Below, piece after piece: positions 14,780-32,680 of a DNA stretch of 32,680 nt. Positions within the stretch are counted from its first letter, which is position 1, and every line of letters begins with the position of its first letter. The position numbers and the translations under genes are program-made. The notes below the pieces were generated by a model. That model was not told the origin of the DNA and made no database searches. It saw only the letters and a list, made by a program, of their open reading frames with translations. Source of the DNA: Gemmataceae bacterium. GTDB taxonomy: Bacteria > Planctomycetota > Planctomycetia > Gemmatales > Gemmataceae. The DNA lies in NCBI GenBank assembly GCA_019694755.1, contig JAIBBI010000048.1, positions 1 to 32,680 of the forward strand. The letters are read 5' to 3'.

Positions 14780-14780
<1 letters not shown>
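14364..14780 (-). CDS. atpC: F-type ATP synthase epsilon subunit
   Basis: A 138-residue epsilon subunit. The beta-sandwich part contains the family pattern VPMYDGELGVMHGRSPLIGRLGVGELRL near residues 34-60, and a C-terminal helical part follows to the end. Epsilon connects the rotor and damps ATP hydrolysis. ATG 14780 overlaps the atpD stop by one base (TGATG), so coupling is likely. A second in-frame ATG, two codons on (14774), is also possible. Much longer upstream open sequence belongs to the atpD frame. It ends just before the terminator. Confidence 0.93.
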
Positions 14781-16237
<1,457 letters not shown>

Positions 16238-16284
16238 TTAAGTGGTTCGTCGGTTCCGCCGCGTCCGCAAGGTCGGGTCGGAGT

Positions 16285-17160
16285 CTATTCGAGGGCCGCG
16301 GCCCCCGCGATGATTTCGGACAGTTCCGTCGTGATCTTCGACTGACGGGCGCGGTTGTATTCCTGCGACAGAGAGCGAATGATCTCGTCGGCGTTGTCGG
16401 TCGCCGCCTTCATCGCCACGCGCCGGGCGATCTGCTCGCTCACGGCCGCGTCGAGGAAGCACTTGAACAACCGGGCCTTGAAGGAAACCGGGACGATTTC
16501 TTCCAGGATCCCCGCGGCGTCCGGCAGGAACTCGTATTCCACCTTGGGGCCGGTCGGCGCCTTCTCGGTCTTGGCGGGGCCGGAAAAAGGGAGAATCGTC
16601 TCGAGTACTGCCTGTTGCCGGGCCGCGTTCAAAAACCGCGTATAGGCGACATCGACCCGGTCAATCTTGCCGGACACGTAGCCCGCAATGAAACGCTCGG
16701 CCAGTTCGTTGACTTCTTCGAATTTCGGCTTGTCTTCAAAGTGCGTGTAAGTCCGGTCGGTAGTGATGCCGTTAAACTTGCACCAGTTGATGGCGCGTTT
16801 GCCGGACACCTCGACGGCCACGTTCACGCCGTCTGCTTTGAGCTTGCGAAAGCCCTGCCCCGCTTCGCGAAGAATCGAGCCGTTGTACCCGCCGCACAAC
16901 CCACGGTTGGAGCAGAGCACGAGAAGGACGGAGTTCTTCGTCGTCTCCCGCACTTCGAGGAGCGGGTGGCGTATCGCGCCGGCATTGGCAGTCAGGTCGG
17001 CCGCCAGTTCCGCGATCTTGCGGGTAAACGGCTCGGCCTGGGTCGCCCGGTCCATCGCCTTCTTGAAGCGTGACGTGGCGATCAGCTCCATCGTCCGCGT
17101 AATCTTGCGGATGTTGCGGATTGCTTTTCGGCGTTTGACCAGCTCGCGTGTATTTGCCAT
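16285..17160 (-). CDS. atpG: F-type ATP synthase gamma subunit
   Basis: A 291-residue gamma subunit, the rotor shaft. The N-terminal helix motif TRELVKRRKAIRNIRKITRTMELIATSRFKKA and the SNRGLCGGYN segment are family signatures, and the C-terminal helix SEQIARRVAMKAATDNADEII is intact, closing with the NRARQSKITTELSEI block. ATG 17160 follows AGGGA at good spacing. Length is normal. Confidence 0.95.
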   Translation of the reverse strand: MANTRELVKRRKAIRNIRKITRTMELIATSRFKKAMDRATQAEPFTRKIAELAADLTANAGAIRHPLLEVRETTKNSVLLVLCSNRGLCGGYNGSILREAGQGFRKLKADGVNVAVEVSGKRAINWCKFNGITTDRTYTHFEDKPKFEEVNELAERFIAGYVSGKIDRVDVAYTRFLNAARQQAVLETILPFSGPAKTEKAPTGPKVEYEFLPDAAGILEEIVPVSFKARLFKCFLDAAVSEQIARRVAMKAATDNADEIIRSLSQEYNRARQSKITTELSEIIAGAAALE

Positions 17161-17206
17161 CGTTTTTCCCTACGCCCGCCGGCCAGGCCGGACCGGGCCA
17201 GGATTC

Positions 17207-18931
17207 TCAGCCCTTGAACTGGGTGCCGAACTCCGCGAGGCATGCCCGCAGCGATGCGTCGAGGTCCTTGGAGAACTTCTTTTCTTCGACCAGCTTGTTG
17301 CGGACTTCCGGCTTCTGTTCCTTCATGAAGTTGAGGAACTGCTCCTGCCAGGCCGGCACGGACTTGACCGGGACTTTGTCGAGGAACCCGTTGGAACCCG
17401 CGAACAGGACCAGGACCTGGTCGATCACGTTCATGGGGCTGAAGGCCGGCTGCTTGAGCAGCTCGACCATCCGGTAGCCGCGATCGAGCTGTTGCTGGCT
17501 CGCCTTGTCGAGTTCGGTACCGAGTTGAGCGAAAGCCTCGAGTGACCGGAAGGCCGCGAGATCGAGTCGGAGGCTGCCGGCCACCTGCTTCATCGCACCG
17601 ATCTGGGCATTGCCGCCCACGCGGGACACGCTGATACCGACGTCGACGGCCGGGCGGACGCCGGCGAAGAACAAGTCAGGCTGAAGGTAAATCTGGCCGT
17701 CGGTGATCGAGATCACGTTGGTCGGGATATAGGCGGACACTTCGCCTTCGAGGGTTTCAATGATCGGCAGGGCCGTCAGCGATCCGCCCGAGTTCCACAC
17801 CTTGGCGATCTTGAGCTGGGTGTTCGTGATCTTCTTGCCGAGTTCGACGATGTCACGCTCGGCCTGTTCCTTGCCCTTGGGCCCGAGGTAGCTCTTGCAC
17901 TTGCCGCCAGACTTGCGCGGCTCAGTCGTGTGGTCTGCATCGTTGACGCCCCAATCGTCGGTGACCTGATCACCATCCTTGACGTTGGCGGGCACGATCA
18001 CCCAGCGGTCGGCACAGCGGGCCGAGCGCTCAAGCAGGCGGGAGTGGCAGTAGAAGATATCGCCGGGGTATGCCTCGCGGCCGGGAGGCCGCCGCATCAG
18101 CAGCGAAAGCTGGCGGTATGCCGAGGCCTGCTTGGTCAAGTCGTCGTACACGCACAGCGTGTCGCGACCCTGCTCATACATGAAGTACTCGGCCATTGCC
18201 GTGCCGGCGTAAGGCGCGATGTACTGCAGCGGGGCGGCGGCGGAAGCGGAAGCGACGACCACGATGGTGTAGTCCATCGCGCCGTACTTGCGGAGGTTTT
18301 CGACGATCTGCGCGACGGTCGATTCCTTTTGACCGATTGCGACGTAGACGCAAATCACCCGTTCGGACTTCTGATTCAGAATCGTGTCGATGGCGATCGT
18401 CGACTTGCCGGTCTTGCGGTCGCCGATGATTAGCTCGCGCTGGCCCCGGCCGACGGGCGTCATGGCGTCGATGGCTTTAATGCCGGTCTGCAACGGCGTC
18501 TTGACGGGTTGACGTTCTACGACGCCGGGGGCGATCGATTCGAGCGGCCGCACTTTGTCGCTAACGATCGGGCCCTTGCCGTCGAGCGGGTTACCCAGCG
18601 GGTCAACGACCCGGCCGATCATCGCGTCGCCGACCGGCACGCTAAGCAGTTCGCCGGTCGTGCGGACCTCGTCGCCTTCCTCGATGGAAAGGTAGTCGCC
18701 GAGAATGATGATACCGACGGAGCTTTCTTCGAGGTTGAAGGCCAGGCCCCGCACGCCCGCACGGGTGAACTCGACGAGTTCGCCCGACATGACACTGGAG
18801 AGCCCGTAGACTCGCGCGATACCGTCGCCCACTTCGAGGACCTTACCGACCTCGTGGGATTCGACCTTGTCGCGATACGATTCAATCTCAGACTTGAGGA
18901 CTGAGACTATCTCGTCGGCGTTGAATTTCAT
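17207..18931 (-). CDS. atpA: F-type ATP synthase alpha subunit with an extra insert
   Basis: A 574-residue alpha subunit, about 65 residues longer than usual. The P-loop GDRKTGKS is at residues 171-178, the noncatalytic site is intact, and [17 protein letters not shown] and the C-terminal helices are clear. The extra length lies in residues about 306-381, between SRLLERSAR and [12 protein letters not shown], where other bacteria have about 18 residues. The insert is charged and has two Cys (306 and 345). The start [13 protein letters not shown] matches the family N-terminus, which places it 44 bases inside atpH. A frameshift artefact is unlikely because the frame is continuous and the flanks are well conserved. 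Confidence 0.95.
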
Positions 18932-19544
18932 GCGTGCTTCTCTCGATCATTTGTTTCATCAGGGCGTCGAGCCGGCCCCGGACGCTGAGATCCAGCATCC
19001 GGTCGCTGACCTGGAGCCGCAAGCCGCCCAGCAGTTCGGGCTCGATGACCTCGACGAGGACGGGGTTCAGGTGGAACCGAGTCTCTGCCAGGTTCTTGAC
19101 GGCCGTGCGTTGTTCGTCGGTCAGGGGTGCGGCCGACTTCACGAGGACACGCACGCGCTTGTGGAACTCGTCCCGCAATGCACGATATTGTGCCGCCACC
19201 GGCCGCAGAAGTTCGAGCCGCCCGTGTTTATTCAGGACGAGCAGAAAGTTCAGGAAAAGCTTGTCAGTCTTGTTCTGGAAGACGGCGATCAATGCCGCTT
19301 CGAGTTTGGCAACCGGAATCAGGCCGCCGGTGAGCAGCGACGCGACATCCGATTGGGTCGGGGCCTGGACCAGCGGGTTTCCCACCAGTGTGTCAAACGA
19401 CTCCTGAAAGTCGTCGACCTTGTTGACCGGAATGGCCGCCTCGAGAAGCGCCTTGGCATACACGCGGGCAATCCGCAGGGCGTCCACGTCGAAAACCGAC
19501 GGGGCGCGGGTGGGATCCAGATCGTGAATGTCCTTGTGGTGCAT
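18888..19544 (-). CDS. atpH: F-type ATP synthase delta subunit
   Basis: A 218-residue delta (OSCP) subunit that links F1 to the b stalk. The N-terminal helical domain starts at [16 protein letters not shown] and the C-terminal part holds the signature [21 protein letters not shown]. An extra N-terminal tail of about 20 residues and a basic C-terminal tail of about 17 residues, the part overlapping atpA by 44 bases, are not usual. ATG 19544 shares one base with the atpF stop (TGATG). A GTG three bases earlier (19547) would give a four-base overlap. Confidence 0.9.
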
Positions 19545-20305
19545 CACGCGTTCACTTTGCGGATTTCTTCGATCGCTTCGTCAATCAGCCGCCGGTGCTG
19601 AGCCCCGTCTACCTCGCGGCGGATGGCAATGGCCGAAGCCTTGGTGGCGAGATCCGCCGCCTTGGTCCAGAGGCTTTGCATGGCTTGATCGGTCTCGAGC
19701 TTGATCTCCCGGCGGAGCCGTTCACGCTCTTCGGCGATCTGGGCCATGTTGTCGGCCTTGATTTGTTCGGCCGTCGCGATCGCGTCACGCTTGCCTTCGT
19801 CGATCATGGCTTTGACCTTGCCGGCCGCCTCCGCTCGCTCGCGTTCGAGATCCGCCATCAACGTCCGGGCTTCAACGCGGGCCTTTTCAGCCTCGTCGAG
19901 TGCGCTGCGGATGTTCTTCTCGCGATTCTGCAAGCCCGCGATCATCTTCGGCCAGGCCACCCGGCCGAGAACAAACATGAGGGCGAGGAAAATTGCGAGC
20001 GACCAGATGCCGAGGTCGAAGCGGAGTGACGCCATCTTTCCGATCGTCGGGGCGGACTTGTTCACGACTTCGTGAGCATGCCCTTCTTCGATCATGTGAT
20101 GGAATTCCGCCTTGTCCTTCTCGTTGGCCAGGTCATAGACCCGGGTCGAGAGTTTGCCGTCGGCACCGTGGCCGGTGACCTCGTACTTCGGCGGAGGACC
20201 GTGCGCGTGCCCCTTCTCGTCGCCGCCGGACTTGGGGTCGCTCGAAGCGACACCGAAACCGGTAGCCAGGAAAAGGACGGCCAGTGATAGTCGTAAATAG
20301 TGCAT
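19544..20305 (-). CDS. atpF: F-type ATP synthase b subunit with signal peptide and His-rich extension
   Basis: A 253-residue b subunit, about 95 residues longer than the usual form. The normal part starts with the membrane span at residues 98-118 (LGIWSLAIFLALMFVLGRVAW), continues with the RNV-like LQNREKNIRSALDEAEKAR helix and a long charged dimerisation helix to the end. Before the span is a predicted signal peptide (residues 1-20) and a hydrophilic stretch (about 22-95) containing seven His (33, 35, 46, 69, 70, 76, 78). The extension should lie outside the cytoplasm. ATG 20305 follows GAGGG. Metal binding is a possibility, not shown. Confidence 0.9.
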   Translation of the reverse strand: MHYLRLSLAVLFLATGFGVASSDPKSGGDEKGHAHGPPPKYEVTGHGADGKLSTRVYDLANEKDKAEFHHMIEEGHAHEVVNKSAPTIGKMASLRFDLGIWSLAIFLALMFVLGRVAWPKMIAGLQNREKNIRSALDEAEKARVEARTLMADLERERAEAAGKVKAMIDEGKRDAIATAEQIKADNMAQIAEERERLRREIKLETDQAMQSLWTKAADLATKASAIAIRREVDGAQHRRLIDEAIEEIRKVNA

Positions 20306-20372
20306 GTGCAGGCCCTCAGAGGCCCGCCCGCGGTGAACCGCGAGCGAGTCGCCGCCGGGTAAACCGGGTTAA

Positions 20373-20681
20373 TTACCGGCCGAAGAACAGGACCAGCAGG
20401 CAGACGAGCAGACCGAAAAACGTGGCACCTTCGAGAAGGGCGGCCACGGTGATCATGCTGCCGGAGACCTTGTCGGCCACTTCCGGTTGACGGGCCATGC
20501 TCTCGAGGGCGGCCGAGCCGATCTTGCCGAAGCCGTAGCCGGCGCCGAGGAGGGCAATTGCCGCACCCAGGCCCGCACCCATCGAACTGCCGGAGAACGG
20601 AGCAACTTCCGCGGCGAAGCTCATCGGAGCAGCCGCGAGGAGGCAGGCAAAAGCAAACAGCGCCAGGCGGGTCATCTTCAT
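20373..20681 (-). CDS. atpE: F-type ATP synthase c subunit (with signal peptide)
   Basis: A 102-residue c subunit. A signal peptide (residues 1-23, SFA-A cleavage) precedes the two-helix hairpin. The loop ARQPE is at residues 63-67, and the ion-carrying carboxylate is Glu84 in ALLEGATFFG. The Na-type signature is absent: by alignment around ARQPE the Gln of helix 1 is Phe51, and the residue after Glu84 is Gly not Ser/Thr. Proton coupling is therefore inferred. A strong AAGGGGAT ribosome site fits the high copy number of c in the ring. Confidence 0.93.
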   Translation of the reverse strand: MKMTRLALFAFACLLAAAPMSFAAEVAPFSGSSMGAGLGAAIALLGAGYGFGKIGSAALESMARQPEVADKVSGSMITVAALLEGATFFGLLVCLLVLFFGR

Positions 20682-20745
20682 TACTCAATCCCCTTCATGC
20701 CGGTCGTGGTGTGTGTGATCATCTGCGGGCGAGCTTGGGTATTTT

Positions 20746-20766
20746 ATTGCGAGTCATACTCGCAAT
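20746..20766. promoter_or_regulatory. 9-bp perfect hairpin in the atpB-atpE gap
   Basis: The arms 20746-20754 and 20758-20766 (ATTGCGAGT / ACTCGCAAT) enclose a 3-base loop. The site is in the AT-rich 97-base gap between atpB and atpE, 65 bases ahead of atpE. There is no T-tract after the stem in the operon direction, so it is more likely an mRNA processing or stability element than a terminator. Confidence 0.5.
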
Positions 20767-20778
20767 TATCTCTATGAG

Positions 20779-21582
20779 TTAATGGGCCGGATGCAAGGCT
20801 GAGCCCATGAACAGCGCCGTCAGGTAAGTGAACACGAAAGCCTGCAGAAACGCGACGAAGATCTCCAGCAGGCTAAGCGCGACGATCAGCAGCGAACTGC
20901 CAACTCCGATTGGCCAGAATAGAAACCAATCAGTGTTTTTCGCGAGGACGATGAACGACAATATGAACGCAAGTACCATGTGACCCGCAAACATATTGGC
21001 AAATAACCGGACAGACAGGACGAAGGCCTTAATGAAGTGGCCGAGGATTTCGATGCCGAAGATCAGGCCGCCGATCAGGTAGTTCAAAGGCTTTGGCGCG
21101 TCGATGTGCGGGAAGTGGTGGCCGATGTAATGGCCGATTCCCTGCTTCATTACGGCCGAGCCGTGGATGGCGAAAAAGGCTACGATTGCCAGCGTCCCTG
21201 TGACGGCAAGGCTGGCCGTCGCCGACCCGCAAAACGGAATCATCCCGAGCAGATTGTTGAACAGAATGTACAGGAACAGGGTCCAGAAGAACGGCACGTA
21301 AGTATCGCAATCGTGTTCGCCAATCGTTGGTTTGACGACCCGCTCGCGAATGAAAGTGAGAAGCGATTCAAAGCAGTTGTTCCAGATTCCCTTAGGCGGT
21401 GCGCCGCTGGCCATCTGGCGAGAAAGCGGCACGAAGATCAGAATGATCAAGCCTGCCGCTAATAATTGCAAAATAATGAACTTGCTCAGTCCATACGGGA
21501 TGTTGGCAAACATGTGCTGAGTTTCAAAAAACTCCCACACTTTGGAGTCGACGACGTGGTCGAATGCGTCCGCCAAAAGCAT
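20779..21582 (-). CDS. atpB: F-type ATP synthase a subunit
   Basis: A 267-residue a subunit forming the proton half-channels next to the c ring. The essential arginine is Arg192 in LSVRLFANMFAGHM, and several further membrane spans are present. A histidine (His201) sits where the E. coli subunit has Glu219, a common substitution. The open frame extends about 50 codons upstream, but that part reads through the preceding gene. ATG 21582 with AAGGGA upstream was chosen. Second half ends with EIFVAFLQAFVFTYLTALF, the conserved final helix. Confidence 0.94.
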   Translation of the reverse strand: MLLADAFDHVVDSKVWEFFETQHMFANIPYGLSKFIILQLLAAGLIILIFVPLSRQMASGAPPKGIWNNCFESLLTFIRERVVKPTIGEHDCDTYVPFFWTLFLYILFNNLLGMIPFCGSATASLAVTGTLAIVAFFAIHGSAVMKQGIGHYIGHHFPHIDAPKPLNYLIGGLIFGIEILGHFIKAFVLSVRLFANMFAGHMVLAFILSFIVLAKNTDWFLFWPIGVGSSLLIVALSLLEIFVAFLQAFVFTYLTALFMGSALHPAH

Positions 21583-21596
21583 CTCGAATCCCTTGG

Positions 21597-21953
21597 CTAA
21601 GTCGGCGGAATGGCGCTGTGCACTATGACCAGGAGGGCAACCTGGTAAAAGACCAATAGAGCCGGCCAGAAGCCGACGCTGAGCTGGTCCCCGGCTATCA
21701 GCGCAGTGCAGGCTGCGGCCCCGAGAGTCCACCCGAGGCGCGGCACCACGCCGACCATGAAAGCCATCCGATTCCGGTTCGCAGGAGTTTTACGAAGCCT
21801 GACTTTTTCGGCAACCCGCCCGAAGACGATCGGCCCGCCGGCAACCACCCAGGCCAGAACACCCGATTTCGCCCCGCGAACGCCGTCGCTCTCGGCCAGG
21901 ATCGCTACGGCCAGCGCCCCGACAGCTGGGTAAATCCAGCGGTTTACCTTCAC
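21597..21953 (-). CDS. AtpI-like small membrane protein of the ATP synthase operon
   Basis: A 118-residue protein with about four membrane spans, encoded where atpI is usual: between atpZ and atpB. It shows no strong motif I can recognise; the size, topology and position suggest an AtpI-type accessory protein helping c-ring assembly or ion supply. The start is GTG 21953, overlapping the upstream stop by four bases (GTGA). The next gene, atpB, starts 14 bases after its stop. Assignment rests mainly on context. Confidence 0.65.
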   Translation of the reverse strand: MKVNRWIYPAVGALAVAILAESDGVRGAKSGVLAWVVAGGPIVFGRVAEKVRLRKTPANRNRMAFMVGVVPRLGWTLGAAACTALIAGDQLSVGFWPALLVFYQVALLVIVHSAIPPT

Positions 21954-28805: not shown

Positions 28806-28825
28806 ATTCAGCCTCAAGGCTGAAT
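28806..28825 (-). terminator. Hairpin at the stop of the M56 gene
   Basis: Stem ATTCAGCC/GGCTGAAT (28806-28813 with 28818-28825) around a 4-base loop. The stop codon of the M56 gene lies within the hairpin. A second small stem and a weak T-rich stretch (TTCTC) follow on the minus strand. A terminator role is plausible but weak. Confidence 0.4.
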
Positions 28826-30514
28826 CGGCGGCTTGCGATCGTTGCGGAGCTTTTCGAGTTCGCGGCGCAGATCATTGAGCTGCATTTCGAGGTCTTGAAT
28901 CCGTCGGTCGGCATCGACCCGGCCTTCCGCACGGGGACGCGGGTTTTCGGCCCGGCCGCCCGGGGTTGGGGCCACGCCACGCCCTTCGAATCGTCCGCCA
29001 CCTTCGCCGCGAGCAGGCCCCTCGGCGCGACCGGGGAATCCCGACTGTCCCGGTCCTTCGGCGCGGCCCGGGCCTTCTGCCCGACCGCCGCCCTGGCCTC
29101 CTCCCTGCCCGCCACCAAAACGCGGTTCTGGTCGCTGCCCCTCAACCCGGCGTTCCGATGAGCGGGCCGGCTCGGGGCCGCCGCCGCGGGGCGGATTATC
29201 GCCGCCGCGACCTTCGCCGCGTGGGCGAACTGGCTCCGGCATATCGCGACGAGCTTCGAATTCCCGCGACATGCGTTCCATCTGTGCGCGAACGCGTTCG
29301 TAATTGGCTTGAGCCTCTTCAAGCCGGACCTTGGCGTCCTGGAGCGCGCGGCGGAGTTCCGCAATTCCATCGTCTCGACCACCGCCAGCTCGGGGAGCTG
29401 CCTCGGCCCGCTCGCGTGTCGGAATCGGTGCGACCGGAGGCTGAGGTCGTTCCGCCCGCGAGGAAGGCGGGGGTGGCGGCGGGGGCGGGGCCGGCGGAGC
29501 GTCCTGCGCATCCGACCGACTCACCGAAAGTGGAAGGAACAGACCGAAGGCCAGCGCGACGGCCGAGCCGGCGCGGCCCAGGCCGACGGCCGGGCGGGTT
29601 TTCAGAATCATCACCAGTCTCCTTCGCAGTTCACGGACCTGCCCGAAACCACAGGCGAGCGGCGGCAACGCCGGCACTGAAGTCGCAAGGAAGTCCAGGG
29701 TATCGATCAGGGCGTCGGCATACGCCCGCCGTGCCGCCGGCAGCGTTGCCACCACCCAACTATCACAACACAATTCCTCCGCTTCGCGGAGTTGTTGGCG
29801 TGCAAACCATGCGATCGGGTGCCACCAGAATAGGCCACCGACCCCCACCTCGAACCAGCGGACCAAGTGATCACGCCGTTTGATGTGTGCCAGTTCGTGA
29901 ACGAGGACCGCGGCCCGCTGCAACGGGTCGAGCCCCGCAAGCCAGGTTGCGGGCAGCACCAAAAGCGTCCCTCTGCCCTTTGCCACGACGCAGGGCGAGA
30001 ACCGTCCGGACATCGTGACAACCTCTGGTGCCGTCACGCGGAGTCGCCGGGATAGTCGCTCCACCAGATCGGTTGTGGCTATGTCGGCCGGCTGCGATCG
30101 GGTTAAAGCCGAGCCGAAGCGGATCAGCTCCAGGCATCCTCGCCCCAAGTAAAACGCGGTCCCCAGCAGCCAAATCGCAATCGCCCAAGCCCAGAAGTTA
30201 GGAGAAGATTCGATTGCCACATCGGCGTCCGACGGCGCGAACGCGAGGTCTTCTGGGGCGAAAGGCTGCTCGGCGAGCGCGGGGATTGCTTCGGTCGTGA
30301 TCTCTGCAATGGAGATCGGTTCTTCGGAAATCTTCGAGACGGCCGGCGTTGAGACGAGCCAGGGGATCGAATAGACCGGCGGGGCCACCAGTCGGGCCAG
30401 GACGAGAAGCCACATCAAGTGCGTCAGGGCCGGCCGGGCCAGCCACCGGCTCGCGTAGGCCAGTGGTGCTAGTACGGTTGCCGCGGTGCAGTTGAAGAGA
30501 AGTTGCTCCCACAT
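28814..30514 (-). CDS. BlaR1/MecR1-like M56 membrane metallopeptidase with low-complexity tail
   Basis: A 566-residue membrane protease of the BlaR1 type. Membrane spans are seen near residues 8-25, 31-48 and 107-125. The zinc motif HELAH (206-210) and the downstream REAEE (243-247) with CCDSW are intact. A last span at about 316-332 precedes the outer part. This part is not a penicillin-binding sensor but a Pro run (10 residues near 341-350), a coiled coil (about 380-425), a Gly/Arg/Glu-rich repeat stretch (about 440-530) and a final coiled segment. ATG 30514 follows GGGGA. It is 63 bases after the BlaI-like gene, whose repressor it likely cleaves. Confidence 0.88.
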   Translation of the reverse strand: MWEQLLFNCTAATVLAPLAYASRWLARPALTHLMWLLVLARLVAPPVYSIPWLVSTPAVSKISEEPISIAEITTEAIPALAEQPFAPEDLAFAPSDADVAIESSPNFWAWAIAIWLLGTAFYLGRGCLELIRFGSALTRSQPADIATTDLVERLSRRLRVTAPEVVTMSGRFSPCVVAKGRGTLLVLPATWLAGLDPLQRAAVLVHELAHIKRRDHLVRWFEVGVGGLFWWHPIAWFARQQLREAEELCCDSWVVATLPAARRAYADALIDTLDFLATSVPALPPLACGFGQVRELRRRLVMILKTRPAVGLGRAGSAVALAFGLFLPLSVSRSDAQDAPPAPPPPPPPPSSRAERPQPPVAPIPTRERAEAAPRAGGGRDDGIAELRRALQDAKVRLEEAQANYERVRAQMERMSREFEARRDMPEPVRPRGEGRGGDNPPRGGGPEPARSSERRVEGQRPEPRFGGGQGGGQGGGRAEGPGRAEGPGQSGFPGRAEGPARGEGGGRFEGRGVAPTPGGRAENPRPRAEGRVDADRRIQDLEMQLNDLRRELEKLRNDRKPPIQP

Positions 30515-30577: not shown

Positions 30578-30967
30578 TCAGCGGCGAGGGGTGTCGTCGA
30601 GTTCGTCGATGAGCTTCCGGAGTGACAGGCGTTCCTTCGCCGAGAGATTGCCTTTGACGAGATGCGACAGAATCGGAGCGAGGGAACCTTCGCAAAGCTT
30701 GTCGGCGATTGATTGGAGTCTCCGCCCGATCAGCCCGTCGCGGTCGACCGTAGCCGAAAACACATGGATATTGGTCCGGCGGTCACGCAGGACGTAATCC
30801 TTGTCTTCGAGCCGTTCCAGAAGTTTCTGCACGGTCGCGTACTGAGATGGACCGCCGCCCGGGTACAGGGCGTCGGTAAGCTGCCGGATCGTCAAGGGGC
30901 CGGCGTCCCAGAGCTGATGCATCAGAGCAAGCTCCGCATCCGTGACGTCCTGTGGTGTGCGTGCCAT
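30578..30967 (-). CDS. blaI: BlaI/MecI-family transcriptional repressor
   Basis: A 129-residue winged-helix repressor. The family blocks are DAELALMHQLWDAGPLTIRQLTDAL (about residues 10-35) and the recognition-helix segment YATVQKLLERLEDKDYVLRDR. The C-terminal dimerisation helices follow. The longer open frame upstream reads through the promoter; ATG 30967 follows AGGAC. It precedes the M56 gene in the same direction. An inverted repeat operator lies between the -35 and -10 boxes just upstream, indicating self-repression. Confidence 0.92.
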   Translation of the reverse strand: MARTPQDVTDAELALMHQLWDAGPLTIRQLTDALYPGGGPSQYATVQKLLERLEDKDYVLRDRRTNIHVFSATVDRDGLIGRRLQSIADKLCEGSLAPILSHLVKGNLSAKERLSLRKLIDELDDTPRR

Positions 30968-31000: not shown

Positions 31001-31029
31001 ATAGTAAGACAGTTTGTCTGATATGTCAA
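31001..31029 (-). promoter_or_regulatory. Promoter of the blaI-M56 operon
   Basis: On the minus strand TTGACA (31024-31029, perfect) and TACTAT (31001-31006, 4 of 6) are exactly 17 bases apart. The predicted start near 30994 leaves a leader of about 27 bases to ATG 30967. Confidence 0.75.
31005..31021. promoter_or_regulatory. BlaI-type operator
   Basis: The inverted repeat TAAGACA-GTT-TGTCTGA pairs at six of seven positions and carries the GACA/TGTC half-sites typical of BlaI-family operators. It lies almost wholly within the 17-base spacer of the promoter, so bound repressor would block RNA polymerase. Confidence 0.7.
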
Positions 31030-31066: not shown

Positions 31067-32680
31067 TCAGGAATCGATGGTGGAAATGTTCTTCATATCG
31101 TCGACGACGATCTGGGCGGACTCCTTGAAGAGTGCGACCTTGCCGGTGACTCGGATGACCTTGTTCTTGTAGTGTTCTTTCGGGTCGTTGATACCCGCTT
31201 CCGACATGGGGCTGGCGAGCTTTTTCATTTCTACCACGATTGTGAAATTGTCCGGGTCGCCGTACCTGCCCGAGTTGAGGAATACTCGCTGGCCGTCGCG
31301 GGTCGCACCCGTGGACTGCACAACGAACTCGACGGTCACGCGTTCGTTGACACGCCGGGCCGCCTCCGCAGGGGACACTGAGCCGGCCGACGGCGTATGC
31401 GTGCGGGCCACCGGCGGGTTGGCCGGAGGCGTGGGGTTGTTGCGAACGACCGCAGGCGGAGGTGTATTTGTCGGCGAGTGTTTGACGACGGGAACCTCAC
31501 TCGGTTTGCCGCCACCCGACATCATCCAGGCGCCGAGGGCAATGATCAGGAGCAGAGCCCCTACCCCGCCACCGATGAAAACCCACTTTTTCTTCGGATC
31601 GCCACTGAGCAGTTTGGCGGCCGAGAGGCTCAAGGAACCCGGCCCCTGAGACCGTGGCCCGCCTCGAGCCGCGCCAGCGCGACCCAGGTTGCTATGACTG
31701 ATCCCCGAGATCGGGCCGGATGGCACTCCGGACTGGTAAGACTCCAGAGCCGCACTGAGTCGGGGCATTTCCTCGGGCGCGGGCGGCTCAATCGGAATTG
31801 CCGTCCACGGCGCGAGCGCTTCGATGACCGCTGCAGGAGTCTGATAACGGCGGACCGGCTTCTTTTCCATCATCTTCTTCAGCACTGTCTCGAGGCCCTT
31901 CGGTGTTTCGGCTCGGACTTTCGTAATCGATTCCGGGTCCTTTAGCTGATGGGCCAAGAGCTTTTCGGTGACTGTGCCGTTTTCGAACGGGGCCTTGCCT
32001 GCGAGCAGGAAGTAAAGAGTCGCACCGAGGCTGTAAATGTCCGAGCGGATATCCACTTCGGAGCTGTCAACCGCCTGTTCCGGGCTGAGGTAATCTGCCG
32101 TGCCGAGGACCGACCCACCGACCTGCTGCGTGAGTGAGGCGGCCCCGGGCGCAAAGTACCTCGCGAGACCCATATCGAGAATTCGGACGGTCCCGGCCCG
32201 GTCGAGGAGTAGATTGCCCGGCTTGATGTCGCGGTGGACCCAGCCCAACTCATGCGCGTGTTGCAGGCCGTGCGCCGCCTGCGCGATGTAGTGGCACGCA
32301 CGCGGGATATCGAGGGGACCGTGTTTCTTGACGATCTCGTGGAGCGATGACCCGTCCACGTATTCGAGAACCAGAAAGTGAAGGTTGCCGTCCTGGTCGA
32401 TGTCGTGGGCTTTGACAATGTTCGGGTGGTTCAGGGCGGCTGCGGCGACCGCTTCGCGGTTGAACCGGTCAATGGCTCCCGGGTCTTTAAGCTGGTCGAT
32501 CGGAAGGACCTTGAGCGCGACCAGCCGTTTCATCCGGATGTGTTCGCAAAGGTAGACCTTCCCCATGCCCCCGATGCCGAGAAGTTGGAGCAACTTGTAC
32601 TTACCGCCGGCGATCTGAAAGCCGCGCCATTTGCCGTTGATCAGGAGCCCGGCCTGGAACGGAGTCAGGAGCCCCTGCTT
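31067..32680 (-). CDS. Membrane Ser/Thr protein kinase with C-terminal OB-like domain (5' part off the window)
   Basis: Visible 537 residues; the start lies beyond the right edge. The kinase domain has the G-loop GIGGMGKVY (visible residues 35-43), Lys57 in VALKV, the catalytic HRDIKPGN (149-156), a DMG in place of DFG (169-171) and the activation-site LSPEQA. A linker leads to one membrane span (WVFIGGGVGALLLIIALGAW). The outer C-terminal part, about 95 residues ending in VIRVTGKVALFKESAQIVVDD, resembles a small OB-fold module seen in planctomycete proteins. N-terminal sequence LTPFQAGLLINGKWRGF is a typical planctomycete kinase leader. Substrate is unknown. It precedes the blaI promoter in the same direction, with its own gene ending about 38 bases before it. 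Confidence 0.9.
   Translation of the reverse strand, partial: KQGLLTPFQAGLLINGKWRGFQIAGGKYKLLQLLGIGGMGKVYLCEHIRMKRLVALKVLPIDQLKDPGAIDRFNREAVAAAALNHPNIVKAHDIDQDGNLHFLVLEYVDGSSLHEIVKKHGPLDIPRACHYIAQAAHGLQHAHELGWVHRDIKPGNLLLDRAGTVRILDMGLARYFAPGAASLTQQVGGSVLGTADYLSPEQAVDSSEVDIRSDIYSLGATLYFLLAGKAPFENGTVTEKLLAHQLKDPESITKVRAETPKGLETVLKKMMEKKPVRRYQTPAAVIEALAPWTAIPIEPPAPEEMPRLSAALESYQSGVPSGPISGISHSNLGRAGAARGGPRSQGPGSLSLSAAKLLSGDPKKKWVFIGGGVGALLLIIALGAWMMSGGGKPSEVPVVKHSPTNTPPPAVVRNNPTPPANPPVARTHTPSAGSVSPAEAARRVNERVTVEFVVQSTGATRDGQRVFLNSGRYGDPDNFTIVVEMKKLASPMSEAGINDPKEHYKNKVIRVTGKVALFKESAQIVVDDMKNISTIDS

Follow-up and report, generated by a model that had tools for sequence, protein, structure and literature searches.

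The BlaI-M56 gene pair and its protease core

The 32,680-nucleotide stretch of Gemmataceae DNA analyzed here (the window) carries a gene for a membrane metalloprotease of the M56/BlaR1 type (positions 28814 to 30514; 566 aa, ATG start), which was recognized from its open reading frame (ORF), a Pfam scan, and alignment. This gene and all other window features described below lie on the minus strand. A BlaI/Penicillinase_R repressor is encoded 63 bp away on the same strand (30578 to 30967; 129 aa from an internal ATG; PF03965, E value of 6.6e-22 when the frame was scanned in a longer, 161-aa form), and the two genes are predicted to form an operon. Directly upstream of this operon is a serine/threonine kinase gene (31067 to 32593). 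Its position is not kept in relatives, where, the window's own loci aside, a kinase match was obtained at only two loci.

The Peptidase_M56 domain (PF05569) spans residues 25 to 303 of the protease, with an E value of 2.3e-30 and a score of 106.2 bits, over the curated cutoff of 31. In a 26-row alignment of planctomycete proteins, the HELAH zinc motif (residues 206 to 210; 29885 to 29899) was invariant except at the two X positions of HEXXH. The invariant residues include H206, E207, H210, E246, E247, D251, Y265, and R299, and among them are the third Glu ligand (E246/E247) and the conserved Asp (D251), both of which are required for M56 membership. The initial annotation had described the peptidase core as intact, and both the domain score and the conservation of the checked residues agree with this description. 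Whole-protein sequence searches of the PDB returned weak and mostly low-complexity matches, and a profile search was required; the profile of the 26 planctomycete proteins matched Staphylococcus aureus BlaR1 (8exs) with an E value of 2.9e-10. BlaR1 structures were also the top two Foldseek matches (8ext and 8exs), with weak E values of 0.0036 and 0.0067. D246, Tyr261, and Arg294 are among the residues named in a cryo-EM paper on S. aureus BlaR1 (PDB 8exp and 8exs; PMC9834060). The window protein shares the HEXXH motif with S. aureus BlaR1 and has D251, Y265, and R299 as the counterparts of these three residues.

Further likenesses to the S. aureus BlaR1/BlaI system are the outer loop EL1, an autocleavage-type loop, and the BlaI partner. 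Profile alignment with 8exs and 8exp identified the LACGFG loop (residues 286 to 291; 29642 to 29659) as the counterpart of the BlaR1 autocleavage loop; G291 is invariant in the 26-row alignment, and an RRL motif follows the loop. The scissile Phe is offset by one position, and we therefore do not claim that the bond is identical to that in S. aureus BlaR1. Four hydrophobic segments were detected (residues 5 to 21, 28 to 44, 107 to 123, and about 310 to 331), the last of which contains a membrane helix core delimited by hydrophobicity (residues 317 to 331; 29522 to 29566). From homology, we infer a membrane layout with the protease inside and the tail outside.

A BlaI-like ORF was located upstream of 89 of the 98 M56 ORFs collected for comparison; four of the other nine (L078, L080, L108, and L117) had fewer than 220 bases upstream. 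Twelve loci (L031, L038, L058, L065, L087, L102, L103, L105, L112, L121, L122, and L123) were dropped by a filter for HEXXH variants and score, and the remaining missing loci are duplicates. Judging by titles and abstract openings, planctomycete M56/BlaI pairs were not treated in the literature that we searched. Three M56 genes with similar last-helix ends lie within about 10 kb on one contig (G036:C156, L069 to L071).

The outer tail and a proposed signal peptidase site

Behind the last membrane helix, the initial annotation had noted a Pro run, two coiled coils, and a Gly/Arg/Glu-rich stretch, and this anatomy was borne out by composition and heptad analyses. The Pro run, visible in the sequence, occupies residues 340 to 350 or so (29465 to 29497). 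Coiled coil 1 corresponds to a helix at residues 380 to 423 (heptads at about 384 to 424; 29246 to 29377) and coiled coil 2 to a helix at residues 530 to 558 (heptads at about 532 to 560; 28841 to 28927). For each of them, only 0.1% of 2,000 shuffles reached the observed heptad spacing; in the control, the spacing of the Gly/Arg/Glu stretch was reached by 71% of shuffles. Between the coils lies a flexible linker with GRAEGP-like repeats (residues 425 to 531; 28922 to 29242), 76% of which is Gly, Pro, Arg, or Glu. An AlphaFold2 model from a three-row alignment was poor overall (mean pLDDT of 52.1), with both helices predicted fairly confidently (pLDDT of about 70 to 81) and the linker unstructured (below 50). 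This structure prediction, which the initial annotation had proposed, and the linker composition back its suggestion of a flexible tether; its further suggestions, a response to cell-surface stress and polymer binding by the repeat stretch, are conjectures. In a Pfam scan, the tail matched no family and thus no transpeptidase (PF00905-like) sensor; this coiled coil-linker-coiled coil arrangement, in place of a transpeptidase-fold sensor, sets the protein apart from S. aureus BlaR1.

Coiled coil 2 was also found in relatives and represents a conserved tail element. Its motif occurs in 13 of the 98 M56 tails and in none of 200 shuffles of all tails, although the pattern was defined after seven of its matches had been seen and the count was therefore not blind. 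The element sits 56 to 298 residues past the tail start, and the low-complexity linkers in between are unrelated among relatives. A search for relatives with the same tail, as initially proposed, recovered coiled coil 2 but not the linker. Upstream regions were scored for 12 of the 13 coiled-coil-2 loci (all but L015), and 11 of these 12 carry an operator of the AGACA type with at most one mismatch; L066 lacks it. Other M56 tails hold WD40, PDZ, or Ig-like domains (Pfam scan of 96 tails).

The tail could also be an inert, fast-drifting extension, with the signal entering through the TM2-TM3 outer loop or the membrane itself. Such a tail would accommodate linkers that differ wholly among relatives and the 85 of 98 tails without the coiled coil 2 motif. 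The outer loop carries a net negative charge in 12 of 13 coiled-coil proteins and in 25 of 30 others, and this acidity is independent of the tail; most tails are basic, including 11 of the 13 in coiled-coil proteins, and we detected no correlation between loop charge and tail charge (Spearman coefficient of -0.13, p of 0.42, n = 43 proteins). However, an inert tail would be expected to lose coiled coil 2, which has been kept in 13 proteins despite the drift around it, and we regard an inert tail as unlikely.

The last helix and its flanks resemble a signal peptide, with a basic stretch, the hydrophobic core at residues 317 to 331, and then the sequence SDA/Q, where we propose a signal peptidase site between A336 and Q337 (29504 to 29509) on the basis of motif counts and the S. 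aureus precedent. The pattern [AVST]xAQ occurs at the last-helix end in 24 of 97 M56 relatives (one of the 98 proteins had no scored last helix), compared with a mean of 3.5 and a maximum of 11 over 500 shuffles; TM2 also runs outward, and only 1 of 85 proteins has the pattern at its end. This enrichment is a pattern count made without SignalP, with the exact site loosely defined, and the strict AQ form is absent from 73 of the 97 relatives. A looser form, [AVSTGC]x[AGS][QDEKSN], is spread over the operator classes (25 of 37 AGACA loci and 7 of 13 CCTAA loci). In S. aureus BlaR1, the signal peptidase SpsB is reported to cleave the Gly331-Gln332 bond, right after the last helix; the substitution G331K stops the cut, for which the authors proposed a role in turnover (PMC9834060). 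Our count preceded our notice of this cleavage. The predicted site agrees in position with that of S. aureus BlaR1, just past the last membrane helix and down to the Gln behind it, which suggests that sensor shedding belongs to a common BlaR1-type chassis.

The same features would suit a delivery fusion, in which the last helix functions as a signal peptide and the tail is always cut to yield a free envelope protein at a fixed ratio to the protease. The signal-peptide-like n-h-c layout with AxA/Q fits such a fusion, as do the whole exported-type domains (WD40, PDZ, and Ig-like folds) that form other tails. On the other hand, the equivalent S. aureus cut has been linked to receptor turnover (PMC9834060), and no stand-alone homologue of the tail turned up in the own genome, where a search returned no match besides the tail itself. 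Constitutive delivery is, in our judgment, quite unlikely.

The repressor, its operator, and candidate targets

The window BlaI aligns with S. aureus BlaI (1sd4). Its best structural match is 2g9w (E value of 6.6e-08), an entry titled "conserved hypothetical protein" that we take to be Mycobacterium tuberculosis BlaI. At the position where S. aureus BlaI is cleaved between Asn and Phe, the window BlaI has His-Leu, and the residue aligned with the P1' Phe is Leu in 106 of 118 BlaI-like ORFs. Because of this Leu, cleavage of BlaI is proposed here by analogy; the substitution may reflect a protease whose S1' preference has changed.

A promoter of the form TTGACA-N17-TACTAT precedes the BlaI gene (31001 to 31029; one found versus 0.1 expected), and its spacer contains a perfect dyad, AGACAAACTGTCT (31007 to 31019), which comparative counts identify as the operator and to which binding is predicted. 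The initial annotation had suggested operator targets as a readout, but this operator motif, the signal-peptidase-like site, and the conservation of coiled coil 2 did not figure in it. With at most one mismatch, the AGACAAACTGTCT dyad was found before 45 of 101 BlaI genes (shuffled mean of 0.3). A second dyad, CCTAAnnnnTTAGG, was found before 23 of the 101 (shuffled mean of 0.25), and only one gene had both. When BlaI proteins are ranked by similarity to the window BlaI, the AGACA type occupies the near half of the list. The staphylococcal operator, TACAnnTGTA, differs from the operator found here (AGACAnnnTGTCT).

The own genome has two BlaI genes, each with one operator type, and the two switches are therefore probably insulated from each other, as judged from these sequences. 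The second M56/BlaI pair (L002, G000:C243) has a longer tail that appears PDZ-like by eye and the operator CCTAAGTCTTTAGG, and it differs in both respects from the window M56. Three AGACAnnnTGTCT sites and no reversed-control sites were detected in the own genome: one in the BlaI promoter, one at a gene for an exported Pro-rich protein (L129, G000:C37:9373-9580), and one without promoter-like context. At the Pro-rich gene, the operator lies between the promoter and the start codon, just downstream of the -10 element. This gene runs off the end of its contig after 57 residues; when the final 102 bases served as a query, no contig continuing the gene came up, and the matches were short and repeat-like. 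The idea that L129 is a stand-alone copy of the tail is suggestive at most: its local alignment with the tail scores 66, below the shuffle maximum of 73.

Around all 42 fetched sites outside BlaI promoters, the own two included, we searched either strand for ORFs with a signal-peptide-like start, using a home-made rule rather than SignalP. Such an ORF lay within 130 bp of 11 of the 42 sites, compared with 9.5% (100/1,050) of random positions in the same regions, a modest enrichment of exported ORFs next to operator sites. Ten operator-linked targets were picked by hand from a longer site list. In some cases among relatives, an operator site away from BlaI lies shortly ahead of a gene for an exported protein. 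Two genomes from separate genera have cytochrome c' in this position (L161 and L164), three genomes from two genera have a dioxygenase-family protein (L171, L198, and L199), and two genomes have a short protein with no Pfam match and a common N terminus (L167 and L209). One WD40 protein and one CotH-type protein are also operator linked in relatives. The WD40 protein (L162), 1 of the 10 chosen targets, resembles M56 tails, among them that of L079 in the same genome, but this likeness is weak because WD40 domains are common in these genomes. In several relative genomes, reversed-control sites were as many as true operator sites, so part of the operator sites are due to chance. Genome G022 has 12 AGACAnnnTGTCT sites, 11 of them with the spacer GAT/ATC, and these resemble copies of a repeated element more than a regulon.

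Penicillin targets and the probable signal at the cell surface

In the own genome, which is 97% complete, searches for the transpeptidase family and for Mur ligases both came back without a match; as positive controls, 10 of 14 control genomes matched in both searches. In this respect, too, the system differs from that of S. aureus, as no penicillin target was found in the own genome. Transpeptidases were absent from 53 of the 59 genomes searched, the own genome included. A relative of the M56 protease was present in 41 of the 59, and cross-counting showed that 35 of the 53 genomes lacking a transpeptidase have one. Biochemical work has reported peptidoglycan in some planctomycetes (PMC5147048), and the exact claim is therefore one of no match at this threshold. 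The initial annotation had judged beta-lactam sensing unlikely; the tail, the missing transpeptidase and Mur ligase matches, and the 53 of 59 genomes without a transpeptidase point the same way. Penicillin can almost certainly be discounted as the ligand, and the protein probably reports something else about the cell surface.

BlaI/BlaR1 ancestry, together with the peptidoglycan and putative beta-lactamases reported in planctomycetes (PMC5147048), could be taken to mean that beta-lactams or wall fragments are sensed after all, through an unrecognised site. This reading is very improbable given a genome without transpeptidase or Mur ligase matches and the related M56 proteins in 35 of 53 transpeptidase-less genomes. 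A decayed BlaR1 that has lost its sensor and its function would explain the absent sensor domain but hardly deserves consideration, as the checked active-site residues are intact and do not vary among 26 proteins, the operator and promoter are intact, and the same tail layout is seen across many genera.

By its sequence, the protein is a member of the M56 family and, in the tested features apart from the defining sensor, a BlaR1-type partner of BlaI. We therefore expect it to work like BlaR1 but do not name it BlaR1. The core is ordinary; what is unusual is the outer half and its setting in genomes without a found penicillin target. We favor, with some confidence, a BlaR1/BlaI-type switch in which the penicillin sensor has been replaced by a probably sheddable envelope sensor. 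By precedent, BlaI would at rest occupy AGACAAACTGTCT in its own promoter and hold expression of the BlaI-M56 operon down. The M56 protein would form a membrane dimer, with its protease inside and its coiled-coil/linker tail outside. Signal peptidase would cut behind the last helix (SDA/Q) and shed the tail, leaving few competent receptors. An envelope factor that binds, clusters, or pulls the tail would protect or displace the linker and activate the protease, which would then cut BlaI and open the promoter.

The window protein shares its core, its BlaI partner, and its membrane layout with planctomycete M56 proteins that carry WD40, PDZ, or Ig-like tails, and differs from them in its outer domains; the tails appear interchangeable. 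It is conceivable, and we suggest it only tentatively, that in planctomycetes without a found transpeptidase, BlaR1/BlaI serves as a plug-in envelope receptor, with a fixed protease, repressor, operator, and shedding site and a swappable outer sensor (coiled-coil tether, WD40, PDZ, or Ig-like). Signal peptidase shedding, for which a turnover role has been proposed in staphylococci, would in that case form an integral step of signaling, and AGACA-type switches would control exported proteins, including, in several relatives, members of the cytochrome c' and dioxygenase families. BlaR1 has been studied almost solely as a drug resistance sensor. Here, many genomes in which no penicillin target could be detected have a BlaR1-type core joined to outer parts unrelated to penicillin, and such a core would allow BlaR1 transmembrane signaling to be tested without acylation chemistry. 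The operator motif offers a ready readout and a source of candidate target lists.

Elsewhere in the window, ATP synthase genes occupy positions 14780 to 21732. One of them encodes the A chain, and two others carry the alpha/beta nucleotide-binding domain, one of these two with a V/A-type C-terminal model.
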